Below are positions 4,739-64,000 of a stretch of 64,000 nt of DNA, one piece after another (within the stretch, counting starts at the first letter, position 1; each line of letters starts with the position of its first letter). The translations under genes were made by a program, and so were the position numbers. Location of the stretch: positions 186,001 through 250,000 of the forward strand of contig PNKZ01000007.1 in the NCBI GenBank assembly GCA_013822735.1, written 5' to 3'. This DNA comes from Pirellula sp. (GTDB lineage Bacteria; Planctomycetota; Planctomycetia; Pirellulales; PNKZ01). The notes beneath the pieces were generated by a model that saw only the letters and a list, made by a program, of their open reading frames with translations, searched no databases and had not been told where the DNA came from.

Positions 4739-5101
4739 ATGTCAAACGATGCCGCAGTCGCCGTACCTGAAGTAGAGGAAACGGTTCAGGCTGCGCCGGA
4801 AGTCGCCGAACCGGCCAAGAAACCAAAACGCCAGCCGCGCTATCACGTCGTGCTCTGGAACGACGAGGACCACACGTACGAATACGTCATCGTGATGCTC
4901 CACGAACTCTTCGGTCACCCGCCGGAGAAAGGCTTCCAGATCGCCCAAGAAGTCGACTTACGCGGCAAGGCGATCGTGCTGACGACGACGATGGAACATG
5001 CGGAGCTGAAGCGCGACCAAATCAAAGCCTACGGCAAAGACCCCGGCATCAAGGCCTGCGCCGGCTCGATGAGCTCGACGATCGAAGCGGCGCCGGAGTA
5101 A
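4739..5101 (+). CDS. clpS: ATP-dependent Clp protease adaptor ClpS
   Basis: Adaptor that binds the N-domain of ClpA-type AAA+ unfoldases and delivers N-end-rule substrates. The protein is 120 residues. An Ala/Glu/Pro-rich flexible N-terminus (1-36) leads into the ClpS core, recognised by YHVVLWNDEDHTYEYVI, LHELFGHPPEKGFQIAQEVD and a T..EHAELKRDQI helix. Start ATG 4739 follows GGGGAGGAGAAG, a strong ribosome-binding site; the GTG 33 bases earlier would lie ahead of it. Its TAA stop overlaps the ATG of mtaB by one base (TAATG), so the two are translationally coupled. No clp ATPase gene is nearby. Confidence 0.93.
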   Translation: MSNDAAVAVPEVEETVQAAPEVAEPAKKPKRQPRYHVVLWNDEDHTYEYVIVMLHELFGHPPEKGFQIAQEVDLRGKAIVLTTTMEHAELKRDQIKAYGKDPGIKACAGSMSSTIEAAPE

Positions 5102-6402
5102 TGCCCACCATCCGCACCGCAACGCTCGGCTGCCGCGTCAATCAATACGAAACGGAATTCGTGCGGCAAGGGCTCGAGCGCGTCGGTTATCGCGATGCCG
5201 TCGAAGGCGAAGCGGCCGACCTCTGCATCGTGAACACCTGCACGGTGACGCACGAAGGAGACGCCAAGAGCCGGCAGACCGTGCGGCAGATGGCCAAGCG
5301 CAATCCCGATGCCCGCATCGTCGTCATGGGTTGCTACGCCACGCGAGCGCCCGAAGAAGTCGGGGCGCTCCCCGGCGTCGCGGAAGTGATCACCGATAAG
5401 CGCGAGCTTCCTGACCTCTTGCAACGTTTCGGCGTGGTCGACGTCCCGACCGGCATCGCCCGCTTCGATAATCGCCAGCGAGCCTACGTCAAAGTGCAAG
5501 ACGGCTGCATGCTCGCCTGCACGTTCTGCATCATCCCCTCGGTGCGGCCCAACCTGCGGAGCCGATCACCGGAGCATATCGTCGACGAAGTTCGCAAGCT
5601 CGTCGATCACGGACACCGCGAGATCGTGCTCACGGGCATCCACCTCGGGCACTACGGCGTCGACCGCAACCAAGGCCGCCCGAAACACGAATGGGTCCGC
5701 CTCTCGCATCTCTTGGAGCAACTCGTCGCCGTCGACGGACGCTTCCGCATTCGCCTTTCGAGCATCGAAGCGACGGAAGTCACGCGCGAACTCGTCGCCG
5801 TCATGGCGCGGTATCCGGAGCGCATCTGCCCGCATTTGCACGTTTCGATGCAAAGCGGGAGCGACGGAGTGCTACGACGGATGCATCGCCGTTGGGGCGC
5901 GAAGCGCTTCGTCGACCGCTGCCGACTCGTGCAAGACTCGCTCGATCTCCCGGCACTCACGACCGACGTGATTGTCGGTTTTCCGGGCGAGACCGACGCC
6001 GAGTTCGACGAAACCTTGCGCGTGTGCGACGACCTCGGCTTCTCGAAGATCCATGTCTTTCCCTTCAGCCCGCGTAAGGGGACCCCGGCGGCGACGATGC
6101 CCGACCAAGTTGCGCCGGAGGTGAAGCAAGGGCGCGTCGACCAACTCGAACGCCTCGGCGAAGCGCTCCGCGATCGCTACCACACGTCGCTCGAGGGGAA
6201 GCGTCTGCAGATGCTCGTCGAGGGACGTTTGCCCGACCGGCCTGACGTCGTGGCCGGCACCTCCTGCCGCTATACGCTCATGGAGCTTTCGAGCGACCAT
6301 GCCGGCGGCCCGTTGCCGGCACGGAGCACGCTGGTCGAAGTGGAAGCGGGCCCATCGGAATTCGGCCGCATTCAAGCCCGAGCCGTTCCAATATCTCTGT
6401 AG
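5101..6402 (+). CDS. mtaB: tRNA t6A37 methylthiotransferase (MtaB-type radical SAM)
   Basis: Radical SAM enzyme that converts t6A37 to ms2t6A37 in tRNAs reading ANN codons. The 433 residues show the three expected parts: an N-terminal UPF0004 domain starting TLGCRVNQYETEF with cysteines in TCTVTHEGDAKSRQ and VVMGCYA; the radical SAM motif CMLACTFC (CxxxCxxC, about residues 137-144) with TGIHLGHYG and LHVSMQSGSD; and a short C-terminal TRAM-like region. The CxxxCxxC spacing with TLGCRVN favours MtaB over MiaB or RimO. It is coupled to clpS by a one-base overlap. The stop codon (6400-6402) lies inside a dispersed repeat beginning at 6397. Confidence 0.92.
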   Translation: MPTIRTATLGCRVNQYETEFVRQGLERVGYRDAVEGEAADLCIVNTCTVTHEGDAKSRQTVRQMAKRNPDARIVVMGCYATRAPEEVGALPGVAEVITDKRELPDLLQRFGVVDVPTGIARFDNRQRAYVKVQDGCMLACTFCIIPSVRPNLRSRSPEHIVDEVRKLVDHGHREIVLTGIHLGHYGVDRNQGRPKHEWVRLSHLLEQLVAVDGRFRIRLSSIEATEVTRELVAVMARYPERICPHLHVSMQSGSDGVLRRMHRRWGAKRFVDRCRLVQDSLDLPALTTDVIVGFPGETDAEFDETLRVCDDLGFSKIHVFPFSPRKGTPAATMPDQVAPEVKQGRVDQLERLGEALRDRYHTSLEGKRLQMLVEGRLPDRPDVVAGTSCRYTLMELSSDHAGGPLPARSTLVEVEAGPSEFGRIQARAVPISL

Positions 6403-6425
6403 GGAACGCCCTCCGTGGCGTTCCG
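6397..6425 (+). repeat. single arm of the GGAACGCC/GGCGTTCC dispersed repeat
   Basis: A 29-base unit starting CTGTAGGGAACGCCC. It contains a hairpin of GGAACGCC against GGCGTTCC with a six-base loop. The same unit is found at 8592, 8771 (inverted), 51916, 51961 (inverted) and 63770. Here it follows the last sense codons of mtaB and its internal TAG is the mtaB stop codon. No second inverted copy is seen before 6615. Confidence 0.85.
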
Positions 6426-7776: not shown

Positions 7777-7785
7777 ATTGTGTCC

Positions 7786-7872
7786 GGGTGGCTGGGGCAG
7801 AACGAAGTAATGCCCCAGTCTTCGTCTTCGCATCGCGTCTGGGGCATCGCATTCGCTCTGCCCCAGCCACCC
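7786..7872. repeat. nested inverted repeat (GGGTGGCTGGGGCAG element)
   Basis: The outer stem is 15 bp and perfect (GGGTGGCTGGGGCAG at 7786-7800 against its complement at 7858-7872). Inside it a second 9-bp stem (ATGCCCCAG at 7810-7818 with CTGGGGCAT at 7839-7847) shares the GGGGCA core. The element begins 10 bases after the preceding stop codon and fills most of the spacer before rdgB. It may act as a transcript end or be a miniature mobile repeat. Confidence 0.8.
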
Positions 7873-7937
7873 ACGCAGGCCCGCCCATTCGCACTTTCGG
7901 TTGACCGCGGCGTATCGGCATGGCACAACCATGCCCT

Positions 7938-8555
7938 ATGAAACCTGCGCTTGTGATCGGCACCGGCAATAAGAAAAAAGGGGGCGAGCTCGCCGCCCTC
8001 GTCGCTCCGTTCGGCCTAGTGGTACACACGCTCGCCGACTTCCCGCCGCTCGAGGCCGTCGAAGAAACCGGCCGCACGTTCGCCGACAACGCCGAGCTCA
8101 AAGCGGTCGGCTATGCGAAGCTCTTGAACCAATGGGTTCTGGCCGATGATTCCGGTCTCTGCGTCGATGCCCTCGGCGGAATGCCGGGAGTCGACTCCGC
8201 CCTCTACGCGGGCCGCCACGGCGAAGACGAAGCCAACAACGATAAGCTCCTGGCCGAACTCGGCGCGCGACCGCCCGACGAGCGCTGGGGTCACTATGTT
8301 TGCCATATCGTGCTGGCCGACCCGCGCGGCACGGTTCGCTTTCGCACGGAAGACTACTGCCGCGGCCGCATCCTCACGGTCCGCGCCGGCGTCGGCGGCT
8401 TCGGCTACGACCCGCTCTTCGAGGTGGTGGAATATCACCGCACGTTCGGCACGCTGAGCCCCGCCGTCAAGGCCTGCATCAGCCACCGCGCCCGAGCCAT
8501 GCGCAAGCTACTGCCGGAATTACAACGCCTCCTCGCGGCCGGCGAGTGGAAATAG
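7938..8555 (+). CDS. rdgB: dITP/XTP pyrophosphatase (RdgB/HAM1 family)
   Basis: House-cleaning nucleotide phosphatase that removes non-canonical purine triphosphates (dITP, XTP), releasing pyrophosphate. It is 205 residues, the usual length. The N-terminus LVIGTGNKKKGGEL matches the family's substrate loop, and the signature ADDSGLCVDALGGMPGVDSA holds the catalytic Asp pair (about residues 65-70). GGFGYDPLF and SHRARAM are the expected C-terminal nucleotide-binding motifs. I prefer ATG 7938 because it puts the TGN motif at the usual distance; ATG 7920 is also in frame and adds six residues. No Shine-Dalgarno is clear for either. Confidence 0.93.
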   Translation: MKPALVIGTGNKKKGGELAALVAPFGLVVHTLADFPPLEAVEETGRTFADNAELKAVGYAKLLNQWVLADDSGLCVDALGGMPGVDSALYAGRHGEDEANNDKLLAELGARPPDERWGHYVCHIVLADPRGTVRFRTEDYCRGRILTVRAGVGGFGYDPLFEVVEYHRTFGTLSPAVKACISHRARAMRKLLPELQRLLAAGEWK

Positions 8556-8591
8556 CTTGTTCGTCGCCGACATTGCGAGATACTGAGCACA

Positions 8592-8799
8592 CTGTAGGGA
8601 ACGCCCTCCGTGGCGTTCCGCGCGCCGGCGAATGACCAAATTCCAAGCACCAAATTCCAAACGAATACAAAGCACCGAATGACCGAATTGCGGTGCGGCG
8701 CACATTTGAATTTCTGTCATTTGTCCTTGTTTGTGATTTGGTGCTTGGTCATTGGAATTTCGCCCACCGACGGAACGCCGCAGAGGGCGTTCCCTACAG
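8592..8799. mobile_element. MITE-like element with 29-bp terminal inverted repeats
   Basis: The ends at 8592-8620 and 8771-8799 are inverted copies matching at 27 of 29 positions by eye; each contains the GGAACGCC/GGCGTTCC hairpin. Inside lies a second, imperfect inverted pair made of word-like repeats (ACCAAATTCC, AAGCACCAAA) at 8631-8662 and their complement at 8729-8760. No ORF is present in the roughly 208 bases, so any mobility would depend on an outside enzyme. Related single arms lie at 6397 and 63770, and a compact version at 51916-51989. Confidence 0.75.
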
Positions 8800-8832
8800 A
8801 TGAATTAAAGCATGTACTTGGGAGTCTCCACG

Positions 8833-10158
8833 ATGTACCGTCATACCCTCGGCCTCGTTCTTGGCCTTTGCACTCTGGCCGCGACGGCACGCGCCGAAGA
8901 TCCCCAAGCGTGGGCCGATGCGCATCTCGACGAAATCGTGACCCTGTACAAGTGGTTCCATACTCATCCCGAGCTTTCGCTCCGTGAGAAGGAAACGGCC
9001 GCGCGCTTGGCCGAGGAATGGAAGGCCGCCGGACTCGACGTGACCACCGGGATCGGCGGGCACGGCGTCGTCGGTATTCTCGAAAACGGCGACGGTCCGC
9101 GGATCATGGTCCGCACCGATCTCGACGCGCTCCCGGTCGTGGAAAAGACGGAACTCGTGTACGCGTCGACCGTGAAAGCTCCCGACGGCGCAGGCGGCCA
9201 AACCGGCGTCATGCACGCCTGCGGCCACGACATCCACATCACGAACACGGTCGCCGTCGCTCGCTATATGGCGACGCATAAGGACCGCTGGAGCGGCACG
9301 CTGATGTTCATCGGCCAGCCGGCTGAAGAACGCGGAGCGGGCGCTCAGAAGATGCTCGACGACGGGCTCTTTACGAAGTTCAAGAAGCCGGACTTGGCGA
9401 TCGCCCTGCATTGCGACCACCGGCTGGAAACGGGGCGCGTCGGCATTAGCCCCGGCTTCATCTTGGCGAACGTCGACAGTATCGACATCGAAATCTACGG
9501 ACGGGGCGGCCACGGCGCGAGCCCGCATTCGACGATCGATCCGGTCGTCATCGCCGCGCATCTGATCGTCGACTTGCAAAGCATCATCGCGCGCGAGATC
9601 AAGCCGGGCGAACCGGCGGTCATCACCGTCGGCTCGATTCACGGCGGCACGAAGCACAACATCATCGGCGACAGCTGCAAACTGGAACTCACGGTCCGCA
9701 GCTACAAAGACGAAACGCGCAAGCACCTCTTGGCGGGCATCCGCCGCAAGGCGTTCGCCGCCGCAGCCTCGGCCGGCGCGCCGGAGCCGAAGGTCCTTGC
9801 GACGGAAGGGATGCCCGCCACTTACAATGAGGAAAAGCTCACGGCGAAGCTGGAGAAGACGTTTCGCCGCGTCTTGGGGGATAAGCAAGTGATGTCGCCG
9901 CCGGCGACGATGGGAGGCGAAGACTTTAGTCTTTACTACGTCGTCGGGAAGGTGCCGTGCTGCATGTTCCGCCTCGGCACGATCGACGCGGAACGGATGT
10001 CCGGCTACGAGCGCCTGAAGCTCGAACCGCCGTCGTTGCACTCGCCCCTCTTTTATCCCGACCCGGAACCGACCTTGCGCACGGGAATCACCGCTACCTG
10101 CTGGGGGCTCATGGATTTAATGCCGCCGGCAACCACGGCGAATAAAAACGGGAAGTAG
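8833..10158 (+). CDS. secreted M20 amidohydrolase (peptidase/deacylase)
   Basis: Metal-dependent amidohydrolase of the M20D type (relatives: hippurate hydrolase, N-acyl-amino-acid amidohydrolase, IAA-amino-acid hydrolase). The protein is 441 residues. ATG 8833 has TGGGAG eight bases upstream and starts a signal peptide (hydrophobic core about residues 5-20, ending ATARA), so it acts outside the cytoplasm. Family motifs are WFHTHPELSLREKET, RTDLDALPV, HACGHDIHI (metal Cys/His), GQPAEERGAGA (catalytic Glu), ALHCDHRLETG and GGEDFSLYY near residue 365. The dimerisation domain covers roughly 205-320. An earlier in-frame ATG at 8812 would place seven residues before the signal. The substrate is not known. 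Confidence 0.9.
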   Translation: MYRHTLGLVLGLCTLAATARAEDPQAWADAHLDEIVTLYKWFHTHPELSLREKETAARLAEEWKAAGLDVTTGIGGHGVVGILENGDGPRIMVRTDLDALPVVEKTELVYASTVKAPDGAGGQTGVMHACGHDIHITNTVAVARYMATHKDRWSGTLMFIGQPAEERGAGAQKMLDDGLFTKFKKPDLAIALHCDHRLETGRVGISPGFILANVDSIDIEIYGRGGHGASPHSTIDPVVIAAHLIVDLQSIIAREIKPGEPAVITVGSIHGGTKHNIIGDSCKLELTVRSYKDETRKHLLAGIRRKAFAAAASAGAPEPKVLATEGMPATYNEEKLTAKLEKTFRRVLGDKQVMSPPATMGGEDFSLYYVVGKVPCCMFRLGTIDAERMSGYERLKLEPPSLHSPLFYPDPEPTLRTGITATCWGLMDLMPPATTANKNGK

Positions 10159-13884: not shown

Positions 13885-13944
13885 TTTGAACAACTGACAA
13901 CTGACCAATCCCAAACACGTCGGCCTCACGGCTCGACGCTCGCC
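13885..13944. repeat. short repeats between oppC and oppD
   Basis: Bases 13915-13944, read on the minus strand, match the repeat at 63802-63832 (core GGCGAGCGTCGAGCCGT) and, more weakly, 456-483. Directly downstream, 13885-13905 carries a CAACTGACAACTGACC word-repeat typical of other spacers here. The insertion separates oppC from oppD inside an otherwise overlapping operon. Confidence 0.7.
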
Positions 13945-29350: not shown

Positions 29351-29883
29351 CGCCGATACACGCGCTTCGCTTCACGGCGATGTTGTCCGTCGGCCTGATG
29401 CTCGTCGCCGGGTGTGCCCGATATCAGATGGGCACCAAGTCGCTCTATTCCTGCAACGTCCGCACGGTCTACGTGCCGATGTTCGAATCGAATTCCTATC
29501 GCCGCAACCTCGGCGAACGGCTCACGGAAGCCGTGGTTAAGGAAATCGAACGCCGCACGCCGTACAAGGTCGTGAGCTCGTCGGACGCCGACAGCATCCT
29601 CACCGGCAAGATCCTGACCGAATCGAAGGGCGTATCCGTGGAGACGCCGCAGGACGATCCGCGCGAATTGTCGATCAACATGACCGTGCAGACGAACTGG
29701 ATCGATCGCAACGGCGTCGCCCTCCAAGGCATGCAAGCGGTACCGGTGCCGGAAAGCTTGGTGCAAGTGTACGGAATGCAGAACATGTATCCCGAATTGG
29801 GCCAATCGATCAGCACGGCCCAACAAATCGAAATCGATCGCCTAGCCCGGCAGATCGTCGGGCTGATGGAAACGCCGTGGTAA
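29326..29883 (+). CDS. lptE: LptE-like outer-membrane lipoprotein
   Basis: Predicted outer-membrane lipoprotein of the LptE (lipopolysaccharide-assembly) type, expected to plug the LptD barrel. The protein is 185 residues from ATG 29326. A signal peptide ends with the lipobox LMLVAGC (Cys near residue 32). The mature part begins GTKSLYSCNVRTVYVPMFESNSYRRNLGERLTEAVVKEIERRTPYKVV, the beta-alpha start seen in LptE proteins, and continues with SADSILTGKI-like strands and a C-terminal helix. A TTG at 29314 is an alternative start. It overlaps the BamD-like gene. Confidence 0.78.
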   Translation: MAQQNAAVTPIHALRFTAMLSVGLMLVAGCARYQMGTKSLYSCNVRTVYVPMFESNSYRRNLGERLTEAVVKEIERRTPYKVVSSSDADSILTGKILTESKGVSVETPQDDPRELSINMTVQTNWIDRNGVALQGMQAVPVPESLVQVYGMQNMYPELGQSISTAQQIEIDRLARQIVGLMETPW

Positions 29884-29889
29884 GCGGCG

Positions 29890-30015
29890 TCATTGCAAAT
29901 TGCAAATCGAAAAATGCAAATTGCAAATTGACTGCAAACGGTTAGCCGCCCCGTACTGCCAATTTGCAATTCTCAATTTGCAATTCTCAATTTGCAATTC
30001 TCAATTTGCAATCGA
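29890..30015. repeat. GCAAATT word-repeat with inverted arms
   Basis: The left part (about 29893-29938) is built from TGCAAATTGCAAA words. The right part (29959-30012) is four near-identical copies of CAATTTGCAATTCT, 14 bases each. The two parts are complementary in style and could fold back. AT-rich, unlike the coding DNA around it. It fills the lptE-folP spacer. Confidence 0.8.
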
Positions 30016-30055
30016 ACCGCTGCAAACGAGCGGCGTTTCACCCTAGAATGAGAAG

Positions 30056-34013: not shown

Positions 34014-36218
34014 TTAGGCTCCGCAACCTTCGCAGCAGTTCGGAACCGGGCAGCAGACCGTTACCGGCACTTGCTTGCAGACGACTCGCGGGCAGCAGCG
34101 CGTCACCGTGTAGGAGACTTGCTTCGGCACGCACCGTTGGCACATGATCGTCTTCGTCGTGTGCACCGGCTTGCAGACGCAGTACGGAACTTGCCGCGTG
34201 CACGTTTGGCTCACCATCTTGCAAGTGGTGTAAGGCACTTGCTTGGTGCAGCATTGCGATTCCATGCGGCAGACCGTGTAGCAGATCGTCTTGGTGCGTT
34301 GTTCCGGAACCATCTGGCACGTGGTGTACGTGCATTGACGGACCCGTTGTTCCGGCACCATTTTGCAGGTCGTGTAGCAAACATTGCGAACCCGTTGTTC
34401 CGGCACCATGCAGCACGTGGTGTAGGTGCAGGTACGCATCCGTTGCTCGGGCACCATCTTGCAGGTGGTGTACGTGCAGGTCTTCACGCGTTGCTCCGGC
34501 ACCATGCGGCAGGTCGTGTAGCAGCAGGTCTTCATCCGTTGCTCGGGCACCATCTTGCAGGTGGTATACGAGCAGGTCTTCACGCGTTGTTCCGGCACCA
34601 TCTTGCAAGTGGTGTAGCAGCAGGTCTTCACCCGTTGCTCGGGAACCATCTTGCAAACTTGCCAGGTGCAGGTCTTCACGCGTTGCTCGGGCACCATCTT
34701 GCAGGTGGTGTACGAGCAGGTCTTCACGCGTTGTTCCGGCACCATCTTGCAGGTCGTGTAGGTGCAGGTCTTCGTGCGTTGTTCCGGCACCATCTTGCAA
34801 ACCGTGTACGGAATCCGCTTCTCGCAGCATTCCTTCACCAGCTTGCAGGTCTTGTAGGTGCAGGTCTTCACCCGTTGTTCGGGAACCATCTTGCAGACCG
34901 TGTAGCTGCATTGCTTCACGCATTGTTCGCGGACGTAGCGAACGCAGGTGATTTGCTTCTCACGCATCTCCGGAACCCAAACCTTCTTGCAGCAGCGAAT
35001 CGGCGGGCATTGCACTTCGCACTTGCGAACACAACCCGGCTTGTAGACGCAGCGGCAGCAGCAAGGATCCCAAACCCAGGTACCCGGGTCTTGGATGCAC
35101 TTGGTGATCACGCGTCCCGGCTTCTCGCAGACTTGCGTCTCCCAGCGGCCGCAGCAAACCTGAATCGTCTTCGTTTCGCAAACCGGCTTGCACACCGTGT
35201 AGCAAACGTCGCGGGTGCGCGTTTCCATCACCGGCTTGCAGACCGTGTAGCAAATGTCCTTCGAATGCGTCTCCCACACCGGCTTGCACACCGTGTAACG
35301 GCAGACCTTTTCATGGGTCTCGTACACCGGCTTGCAGACCGTGTAGCAGATGTTCTTCGTGTGCGTCTCCAACACCGGCTTGCACACCGTGTAGCAAATG
35401 TTCTTGGTGTGCGTTTCGTAAACCGGCTTGCAGACCGTATAGCAAATATCCTTCGAACGGGTCTCCCACACCGGCTTGCAGACCGTGTAGCAGATGTTCT
35501 TGGTGTGGGTTTCGTAAACGGGCTTGCAGACCGTGTAGCAGATATTCTTGGTGTGCGTCTCGTACACCGGCTTGCAGACCGTATAGCAAATGTTCTTCGT
35601 GTGCGTCTCGTACACCGGCTTGCAGACCGTGTAGCAGATGTTACGCGTGTGCGTCTGATACACGGGCTTGCAGACCGTATAGCAGATGTTCTTCGTATGC
35701 GTCTGATAAACCGGCTTGCATACCGTGTAGCAGACCTGACGCGTGTGCGTCTGATACACGGGCTTGCAGACCGTGTAGCAGATGTTCTTCGTGTGCGTCT
35801 GGTAGACCGGCTTGCACACCGTGTAGCACACGTTGCGCGTCCGCGTCTCGTACACCGGCTTGCAAACCGTGTAGTTCACCGTTCGGTAGCAGGTTTCGTA
35901 CACCGGCTTGCAGACCGTGTACTCACAGTTCCGATAGCAAACTTCCTTCACGTAGCTCACACAGTTGATCGTCTTCGGTTCGCAGACCGTTTCATAAACG
36001 GTTTTGCAGCAGGTGTACTGCTTCTGCTCGTAGACGACCTCCTTGCAGGTCTTCATGACCGTGTGGCATTGCTTCTTGCAACAAGCGTAGTCGACGGGGT
36101 CGCAACACGCCGTGCAAGACTTATACCGCGCCGCGCCGCAGTAGCTGGCGTCGGCTTCGCCGGACATCATCGCAAATACAAGCGCGATGAATATCGGCAC
36201 TCCCCGAAGCGCTCTCAT
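34014..36218 (-). CDS. cysteine-rich YTV-repeat cell-wall protein
   Basis: Exported structural protein of the planctomycete YTV family, members of which were found in the proteinaceous cell wall of Rhodopirellula. The 734 residues begin with a signal peptide ending GEADA (about residue 24). The N-terminal half holds 16 tandem copies of a 16-residue unit, consensus YTVCKPVYETHTKNIC. A unique Cys/Trp-rich linker follows (about residues 370-445, with DPCCCRC). The C-terminal half holds 12 copies of a related unit, consensus YTTCKMVPEQRVKTC, plus four diverged ones. Each unit has two Cys, so dense disulfide cross-linking is likely. ATG 36218 has AGGAGGAGG upstream, one of the strongest sites in the window, suggesting high expression. 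Monocistronic with its own terminator. Confidence 0.93.
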   Translation of the reverse strand: MRALRGVPIFIALVFAMMSGEADASYCGAARYKSCTACCDPVDYACCKKQCHTVMKTCKEVVYEQKQYTCCKTVYETVCEPKTINCVSYVKEVCYRNCEYTVCKPVYETCYRTVNYTVCKPVYETRTRNVCYTVCKPVYQTHTKNICYTVCKPVYQTHTRQVCYTVCKPVYQTHTKNICYTVCKPVYQTHTRNICYTVCKPVYETHTKNICYTVCKPVYETHTKNICYTVCKPVYETHTKNICYTVCKPVWETRSKDICYTVCKPVYETHTKNICYTVCKPVLETHTKNICYTVCKPVYETHEKVCRYTVCKPVWETHSKDICYTVCKPVMETRTRDVCYTVCKPVCETKTIQVCCGRWETQVCEKPGRVITKCIQDPGTWVWDPCCCRCVYKPGCVRKCEVQCPPIRCCKKVWVPEMREKQITCVRYVREQCVKQCSYTVCKMVPEQRVKTCTYKTCKLVKECCEKRIPYTVCKMVPEQRTKTCTYTTCKMVPEQRVKTCSYTTCKMVPEQRVKTCTWQVCKMVPEQRVKTCCYTTCKMVPEQRVKTCSYTTCKMVPEQRMKTCCYTTCRMVPEQRVKTCTYTTCKMVPEQRMRTCTYTTCCMVPEQRVRNVCYTTCKMVPEQRVRQCTYTTCQMVPEQRTKTICYTVCRMESQCCTKQVPYTTCKMVSQTCTRQVPYCVCKPVHTTKTIMCQRCVPKQVSYTVTRCCPRVVCKQVPVTVCCPVPNCCEGCGA

Positions 36219-51720: not shown

Positions 51721-52003
51721 AACTCTTCATCCACCACTCAATTCAATTCATTCGAATCAAGGTCCGGTTCGGTTGTGAAGCTCGCTTTCGTCTGCTCCCC
51801 GTTGTCACCCGGTGCGTAGCGAATTCCCAGGGATAGGAACACAAGGCCAGGATGGCCACAGCGAAGTTTCCCCGAGCCGGACTTTTTATTTCGGCGCGTG
51901 AGAAGGCAATAGTTCCTGTAGGGAACGCCCTCTGCGGCGTTCCGTGATTCGCGTTGTGCGCGGAACGCCGCGGAGGGCGTTCCCTACAGAAGCCGGAGAG
52001 CGG
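51721..52003. other. spacer after mraZ holding a compact repeat
   Basis: No supported gene. Bases 51916-51989 are a compact inverted repeat (separate entry). The rest shows no structure that I recognise. Confidence 0.5.
51916..51989. mobile_element. compact inverted-repeat element (two 29-bp arms)
   Basis: The arms 51916-51944 and 51961-51989 are inverted copies with one mismatch, separated by 16 bases. Each is the same GGAACGCC/GGCGTTCC unit as at 8592, 8771, 6397 and 63770. This is the short form of the 8592-8799 element, with no internal sequence. It could be the residue of internal loss or a minimal copy. Confidence 0.8.
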
Positions 52004-56482: not shown

Positions 56483-56692
56483 GGGGAGTTATAAGTTATG
56501 AATTGGGAGTTATGAACGTGGGCGACACGACTACTTCACACTAGCCCCGACGCGCAAGCGAGGGGACGTTCGGCAATGCTGAATGCTGGGTGCTGAGTGC
56601 TGAACGGCGAAGATATTCGCACTTCATAACTCATAACTCTGAACTCATAACTACCCTAAGCGTCCCCTCGCTTGCGCTTCGGGGCTAGTGTG
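56483..56692. mobile_element. MITE-like element with 32-bp terminal inverted repeats
   Basis: The arms at 56537-56568 and 56661-56692 are inverted copies with 31 of 32 positions matching, starting CACACTAGCCCCGA. The middle (56572-56655) consists of word-like repeats: GCTGAATGCTGGGTGCTGAG and ATAACTCATAACTCTGAACT. A further TTATAAGTTATGAATT word-repeat lies just outside at 56488-56510. The right arm ends eight bases from the stop codon of the large dehydrogenase. No ORF inside. Confidence 0.78.
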
Positions 56693-56699
56693 CGGTGGT

Positions 56700-63769: not shown

Positions 63770-64000
63770 CTGTAGGGAACGCCCTCCGTGGCGTACCGCA
63801 AGGCGAGCGTCGAGCCGTAAGGCCGACGTGTCCGCATCGAAGCACCAATATCCAAGCACCAAATTCCAAACAAGGACCACTGACGGAAATTCCAAGGTGC
63901 GCTGCGGCGCATTTCGATCATTCGGTCCTTCGTATTTGTTTGGTATTTGGTGCTTGGTCATTGGTCATTGGTCATTTTTTCAGGCACACAGCCCTTTCAA
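63770..64000. repeat. left part of another MITE-like element (cut by window end)
   Basis: Begins with the 29-base GGAACGCC/GGCGTTCC arm at 63770-63798 (one mismatch in the right half), followed by the short GTCGAGCCGTAAGGCC repeat at 63802-63832. Then come word-repeats around CAAGCACCAAATTCCAAAC (63854-63872) and complementary words such as TTGGTATTTGGTGCTTGG (63939-63956) with three copies of TCATTGG. It is the same material as 8592-8799, but its right end is not seen. Confidence 0.72.

Follow-up and report, generated by a model that had tools for sequence, protein, structure and literature searches.

A probable GTAG REPIN, seemingly orphaned of its RAYT and enclosing an independent palindrome, in a Pirellula genome

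The closest described systems are the GTAG REPs, REPINs and BIMEs of Pseudomonas and E. coli, which are intergenic, high-copy, GC-rich hairpins with a RAYT (TnpA-REP) gene flanked by REPs (PMC3733652, PMC6006769). Nesting of REP dimers with palindromes of another kind has already been published, examples being long palindromes with GTAG-15 of A. variabilis, GTAG-23 of T. roseum and CGTC-1 of H. neapolitanus (PMC3733652). Class 3 Y1 genes are associated with CnGA-footed repeats and are reported mainly from Planctomycetes, Acidobacteria and Proteobacteria (PMC6006769). The unit described here occupies positions 8592-8799 of a 64,000-nucleotide stretch of a Pirellula sp. genome, referred to as the window. 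Its ends belong to a family termed R1, which resembles the Pseudomonas and E. coli elements in the GTAG foot, the short GC-rich hairpin, the intergenic placement, the high copy number and the inverted doublets (PMC3733652, PMC6006769). It differs from them in occurring in Pirellulales, in being orphan of its RAYT, and in that 11 of 46 sampled doublets carry an unrelated palindrome of ~134 bp, the core, in the spacer. With the palindrome-associated dimers it shares the nesting of two palindromic families, in the opposite order: in the published cases the REP dimer lies inside the palindrome (PMC3733652), whereas here the palindrome lies inside the REP dimer and is also found alone. Unit 8592-8799 is very probably a REPIN: a pair of REP hairpins, each with a GTAG tag, is arranged as an inverted repeat with the tags on the outside, and an independent palindrome occupies the spacer. 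The unit would have been moved by a RAYT and would now be an orphan or mobilised in trans. It is read as an orphan REPIN rather than a conventional DDE-type MITE because the GTAG tags point outward, target site duplications are lacking and the RAYT is found in relatives and not in the own genome.

The features of the locus and of the related copies in the window are as follows.

6397..6425, +: single R1 REP, its GTAG giving the TAG stop codon of ORF 5101-6402, which we take to be MtaB-like
7920..8555, +: upstream gene, presumably RdgB/HAM1-like, a conserved neighbour serving the empty-site test
8592..8620, +: left R1 REP, CT-GTAG followed by the hairpin GGAACGCC-CTCCGT-GGCGTTCC and G; 153 genome copies at ≤3 mismatches
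8621..8628: remnant of the left REP-doublet spacer, part of CGCGCCGGC (by eye)
8629..8762, +: core, heptad-phased palindrome (GAATGACC...AAGCACCAAATTCC ... GGTGCTTGGTCATTGGAATTT), an independent dispersed family
8763..8770: remnant of the right REP-doublet spacer
8771..8799, -: right R1 REP, inverted, 27/29 identity with the left
8833..10158, +: downstream gene, with the unit just upstream of it; by its sequence presumably an M20-type amidohydrolase/peptidase
51916..51989: short R1 REPIN, 16-bp spacer, no core
63770..63969: composite remnant with one R1 REP, R2 (63803-63832) and core (63838-63969), the second R1 arm missing
63803..63832, +: R2 repeat (GGCGAGCGTCGAGCCGTNAGGCCGACGTGTC)

A first-pass annotation had described near-perfect inverted ends, each of them self-folding, around a nested inverted pair, and all of this anatomy was borne out. 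When recomputed, 8592-8620 and 8771-8799 matched except at two loop positions out of 29. Each arm was seen by eye to consist of GTAG immediately 5′ of the hairpin GGAACGCC-CTCYGY-GGCGTTCC with a 6-nt loop. The nested pair was recovered within an 88-nt inverted repeat formed jointly by the REP and core arms (76% complementary). Folded as DNA, the 208-nt unit reached -67.9 kcal/mol (z = -10.3), a value equalled by 0 of 200 shuffles. The CGCGCCGGC stretch was also seen by eye beside some other core copies. An assignment to CGTC REPs, a class with a CGTC tag and lacking a transposase of its own, was ruled out by the GTAG tag and the RAYT partner found.

The window holds 6 R1 arms at ≤3 mismatches, against a maximum of 0 in 100 shuffles; since two of them are those of the unit itself, four others remain (6397, 51916, 51961 and 63770) and not the five annotated initially. 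Genome-wide, 79 + 74 = 153 arms were found at ≤3 mismatches in the own assembly (G000; 6.88 Mb, 38 contigs, 99% complete) and none with the reversed control pattern, in agreement with the early description of a dispersed, structured, non-autonomous unit. The arrangement was analysed in 85 stretches (337 kb) covering 128 of the 153 arms plus 4 weaker ones. These formed 82 groups: 43 isolated +- pairs, 35 single arms and 4 others. Isolated -+ pairs were not encountered, and the sole -/+ adjacency below 400 bp lay between two neighbouring doublets. After splitting there were 46 +- doublets, all 46 with GTAG outward. Short spacers of 12-26 bp separated the arms in 32 doublets, with a mode of 16 bp (11/32); spacers of 36-49 bp occurred in 3 doublets, each with an R2 repeat, a second REP-like sequence, and spacers of 149-206 bp in 11, each with the ~134-bp core and some also with R2. 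Sequences in the short class were mostly unrelated, except for a small subset resembling each other (6 pairs scoring ≥8 vs ≤2 in 20 shuffles). A flanking duplication of 4-9 bp was found for none of the 46 pairs, and shorter matches were at the shuffled level. With genes called simply from codon usage, 76 of the 84 units sampled were intergenic, 3 inside genes and 5 partly so, compared to 77% of random 80-mers falling inside genes; REPs in general are described as placed in this way (PMC3733652). Within the order, R1 REPs are carried by 17 of the 146 genomes searched. The short REPIN at 51916 is missing from the aligned sequence of the relative G003, and another relative, G001, has other sequence there; the composite at 63770 is missing at the orthologous place in both. 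At the end of the same MtaB-like gene in G002 (L254) a different GTAG REP (GTAGCAGGCACGTTCCACGTGCCG) likewise provides the stop, and independent REP families seem to have hit this one spot.

The core consists of conserved inverted arms of ~30 bp around a variable middle, and 30 copies were collected, of which 22 were aligned (3 one-anchor copies and 5 long-middle copies being left out). Its arms are phased by 7, with self-identities of 0.489 at lag 7 and 0.439 at lag 14 compared to ~0.30 when shuffled, and are built of heptad words of the type AANNNCC (AATGACC, AAATTCC, AAGCACC). None of the 25 stem pairs showed two-sided changes, which indicates that the core is conserved as sequence. The core arm word has 78 matches at ≤3 mismatches in the own genome. 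At ≤2 mismatches it has 73 there, 29 in G001, 24 of a variant in G050, 7 in G003, 2 in G004 and 1 in G012, and it is absent from the other 140 of 146 genomes. The family occurs mainly in the genus of the source genome. Three of these genomes (G050, G004, G012) have the core word and no R1 REP, and 14 of 17 R1 carriers are without the core word; as each family occurs in genomes lacking the other, the two are independent. The inner palindrome, originally taken as part of one element, thus belongs to a separate family. Both REPs were found near 11 of 34 core units, one near 9 and none near 14, with the unit at 8592-8799 assigned by eye. At least one outward-oriented REP was present within 90 bp of 20 of the 34 units, and a REP in the wrong orientation beside none. 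Two further loci, L275 and L280 of G004, hold tandem heptamer arrays matching the core arm word in 7-base steps, and such arrays are a possible source of the heptad-phased palindromes. At 29883-30021 of the window an inverted repeat of 14-base units (CAATTTGCAATTCT), 2 x 7, recalls the heptad phasing. A 39-bp inverted repeat at 56530-56699 (90% paired) belongs to another dispersed family, a similar CACTAGCCCCGACGCGCAAGCGAGGGGAC lying beside the core copy at C1:531571.

The lack of a neighbouring REP in 14 of the 34 core units implies that the core spreads alone, and the nesting could then have arisen in reverse, with the core as the mobile element proper and the REPs as later insertions on either side of it. 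Other bacteria have REP dimers that lie within long palindromes (PMC3733652), which would be in line with such an order. This is improbable in view of the 11 full composites, in which the two REPs enclose the core and have REPIN polarity, of the division of doublet spacers into classes of 16 and ~16 plus the core, and of the 32 doublets without a core. In the preferred reading of a REPIN with an independent palindrome in its spacer, the core, as a separate element, would instead have entered the spacers of some REPINs, and a part at least of the composites may later have been copied as a unit. Copying as a unit is weakened for many doublets by the mostly non-conserved short-spacer sequences. 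A transposase for the core was not found, which counts against this reading. The core gave no BLAST match at E 0.01 in 48 Y1 loci, and candidates for an autonomous core element, sought as core-arm pairs more than 500 bp apart, were rejected: C32:23607-24942 contains two core copies in decay and an ORF of ordinary appearance, with no transposase seen, and C5:91725-92267 appears to be two half copies. The core might conceivably, though we consider it unlikely, represent a distinct transposase-less class of repeat growing and spreading by heptamer duplication and hairpin strand switching, with the REPIN interior as preferred landing and copying platform, a parasite of a parasite.

The strong fold of the unit and its position, judged by eye, after a GATACT-like box and ahead of the downstream gene's start codon would also suit a conserved RNA structure or a regulatory element in the 5′ leader. 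Such a role is highly improbable, as the same leader occurs without the element: in all four relatives read at the locus (G001, G002, G003 and G006, of six relatives, G004 and G005 being left out) the same gene neighbours flank a site with neither REP nor core. The position is thus variable among relatives, as had been anticipated in the first reading. The Rfam scan of the window returned no match other than a tRNA, and 8500-8900 gave no promoter or terminator match. The stem of the core without two-sided changes also speaks against an RNA, as do the genes neighbouring R1 units, which are convergent in 26 cases and divergent in 3. A further palindrome upstream, at 7783-7873 (GGCTGGGGCAGA...TCTGCCCCAGCC), for which G001 gave several matches and G003 some, represents another dispersed intergenic family.

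The partner of the R1 REPs was encountered in other genomes of the order. In G010, a Y1 gene (frame of 191 aa) lies between a set of 3 R1 REPs and a set of 2 inverted ones. A homolog in G028, 76% identical to it, is bracketed by 9 R1 REPs, three of them at 4-5 mismatches, and a third RAYT, in G367, has exact R1 REPs upstream and decayed ones downstream. The G010 and G028 proteins scored 75.5 and 66.9 bits (3.7e-21 and 1.7e-18) with the NCBIfam model REP_Tyr_transpos, narrowly missing its cut-off of 80, and fell below the Pfam gathering score; HuH (DHLHF) and Tyr motifs were recognised by eye. At E 1e-20, RAYT matches are restricted to 3 of 396 genomes of the order. No cognate RAYT was detected in the own genome, and seven REP-bearing genomes (G000, G001, G003, G006, G060, G075, G090) gave no close match, or distant ones only (25-35% identity), for which reason the R1 family looks orphaned in most carriers, unless a diverged gene, or one missing from the assemblies, serves it. 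The own Y1 genes were rejected as movers, since the 8 loci found with Pfam PF01797 showed no R1 REP at ≤8 mismatches within flanks of ~1.5 kb. NCBIfam NF047646 likewise gave 8 Y1 places in this genome, of which G000:C4:89091 was left out of the REP scan. Among the first 30 Y1 loci of relatives scanned, one lone REP, in G003, was separated by ~0.9 kb from a Y1 gene and was judged to be chance; 37 further Y1 stretches of relatives yielded one REPtron, that of G010, and 30 NCBIfam Y1 loci yielded none, only the lone G003 REP again. By analogy with the TnpA-REP literature, a RAYT would have cut and joined single-stranded REP or REPIN DNA at the GTAG foot and would have inserted the copies mostly between genes. 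With the RAYT now absent from, or undetected in, this lineage, the present elements would be orphan copies or be moved in trans.

Like MITEs, the unit is non-autonomous and dispersed with inverted ends, and a conventional MITE, whose terminal inverted repeats a DDE transposase encoded at another genomic site would recognise and whose internal sequence would be the inner palindrome, would account for near-perfect ends, non-coding content and insertion polymorphism; this reading is highly improbable, given 46 pairs free of target duplications, arms that are self-sufficient hairpins standing singly in 35 of 82 groups, internal sequences unrelated between spacer classes, and bracketed genes that encode Y1/HUH RAYTs. 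The MITE-like classification in the first-pass annotation most probably does not hold in its conventional form, as each arm is a complete REP hairpin and arms were found to bracket no genes other than RAYTs, all of these in other genomes. The refuting observation that the annotation had named, a lack of flanking duplications in every copy, was made for the 46 pairs, but HUH-type movement is expected to leave no target duplication. By each feature tested at the sequence level, the R1 arms are of the GTAG REP/REPIN kind, with a RAYT found in relatives and not in the own genome. REP anatomy, dispersal, outward-only pairing, a modular spacer, missing duplications, the empty site and RAYT bracketing elsewhere are all documented here by sequence.

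Literature searches retrieved no description of either repeat, and those by REP and core sequence words gave papers with unrelated titles. As far as these searches show, the R1 family together with its RAYT is new, as are the heptad-phased palindrome and the modular way in which they are nested, and the nested architecture of three families is unusual. A planctomycete REP family with its partner transposase identified in three genomes is hereby added, and genomes without a detected RAYT are shown to retain the same REP sequence in tens of copies. The copies constitute a natural series of REPIN, REPIN with R2, REPIN with core, REPIN with R2 and core, and core alone, and together with the empty sites in congeners it allows nesting order and REP persistence without a RAYT to be addressed by strain comparison.

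The third family, R2, is an optional module that is absent from the unit at 8592-8799 and occurs elsewhere in the window at about 454-485 and 13912-13943. It flanks both sides of a Y1 gene at locus L061 of the own genome, and its reverse strand has, by eye, a CGGA or CAGA foot in 2 of 3 window copies. By these features R2 may be likened to the CnGA repeats of class 3 Y1 genes (PMC6006769). At L059 (G000:C9:186861-190094) a second REP system was observed, with a Y1 gene surrounded by GTAGTCCGCCRCTCCGYGGCGGA repeats, and at L056 (G000:C12:698-4039) a Y1 gene is accompanied by a 23-bp inverted repeat AAAAAGGTGTCAGGAACCTTTTT and, to one side, by several copies of half that repeat spaced in steps of 16 bases. 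Two runs of 48-bp direct repeats at 34149-35994 of the window, with 14 and 12 copies listed, likely encode a 16-residue protein repeat.
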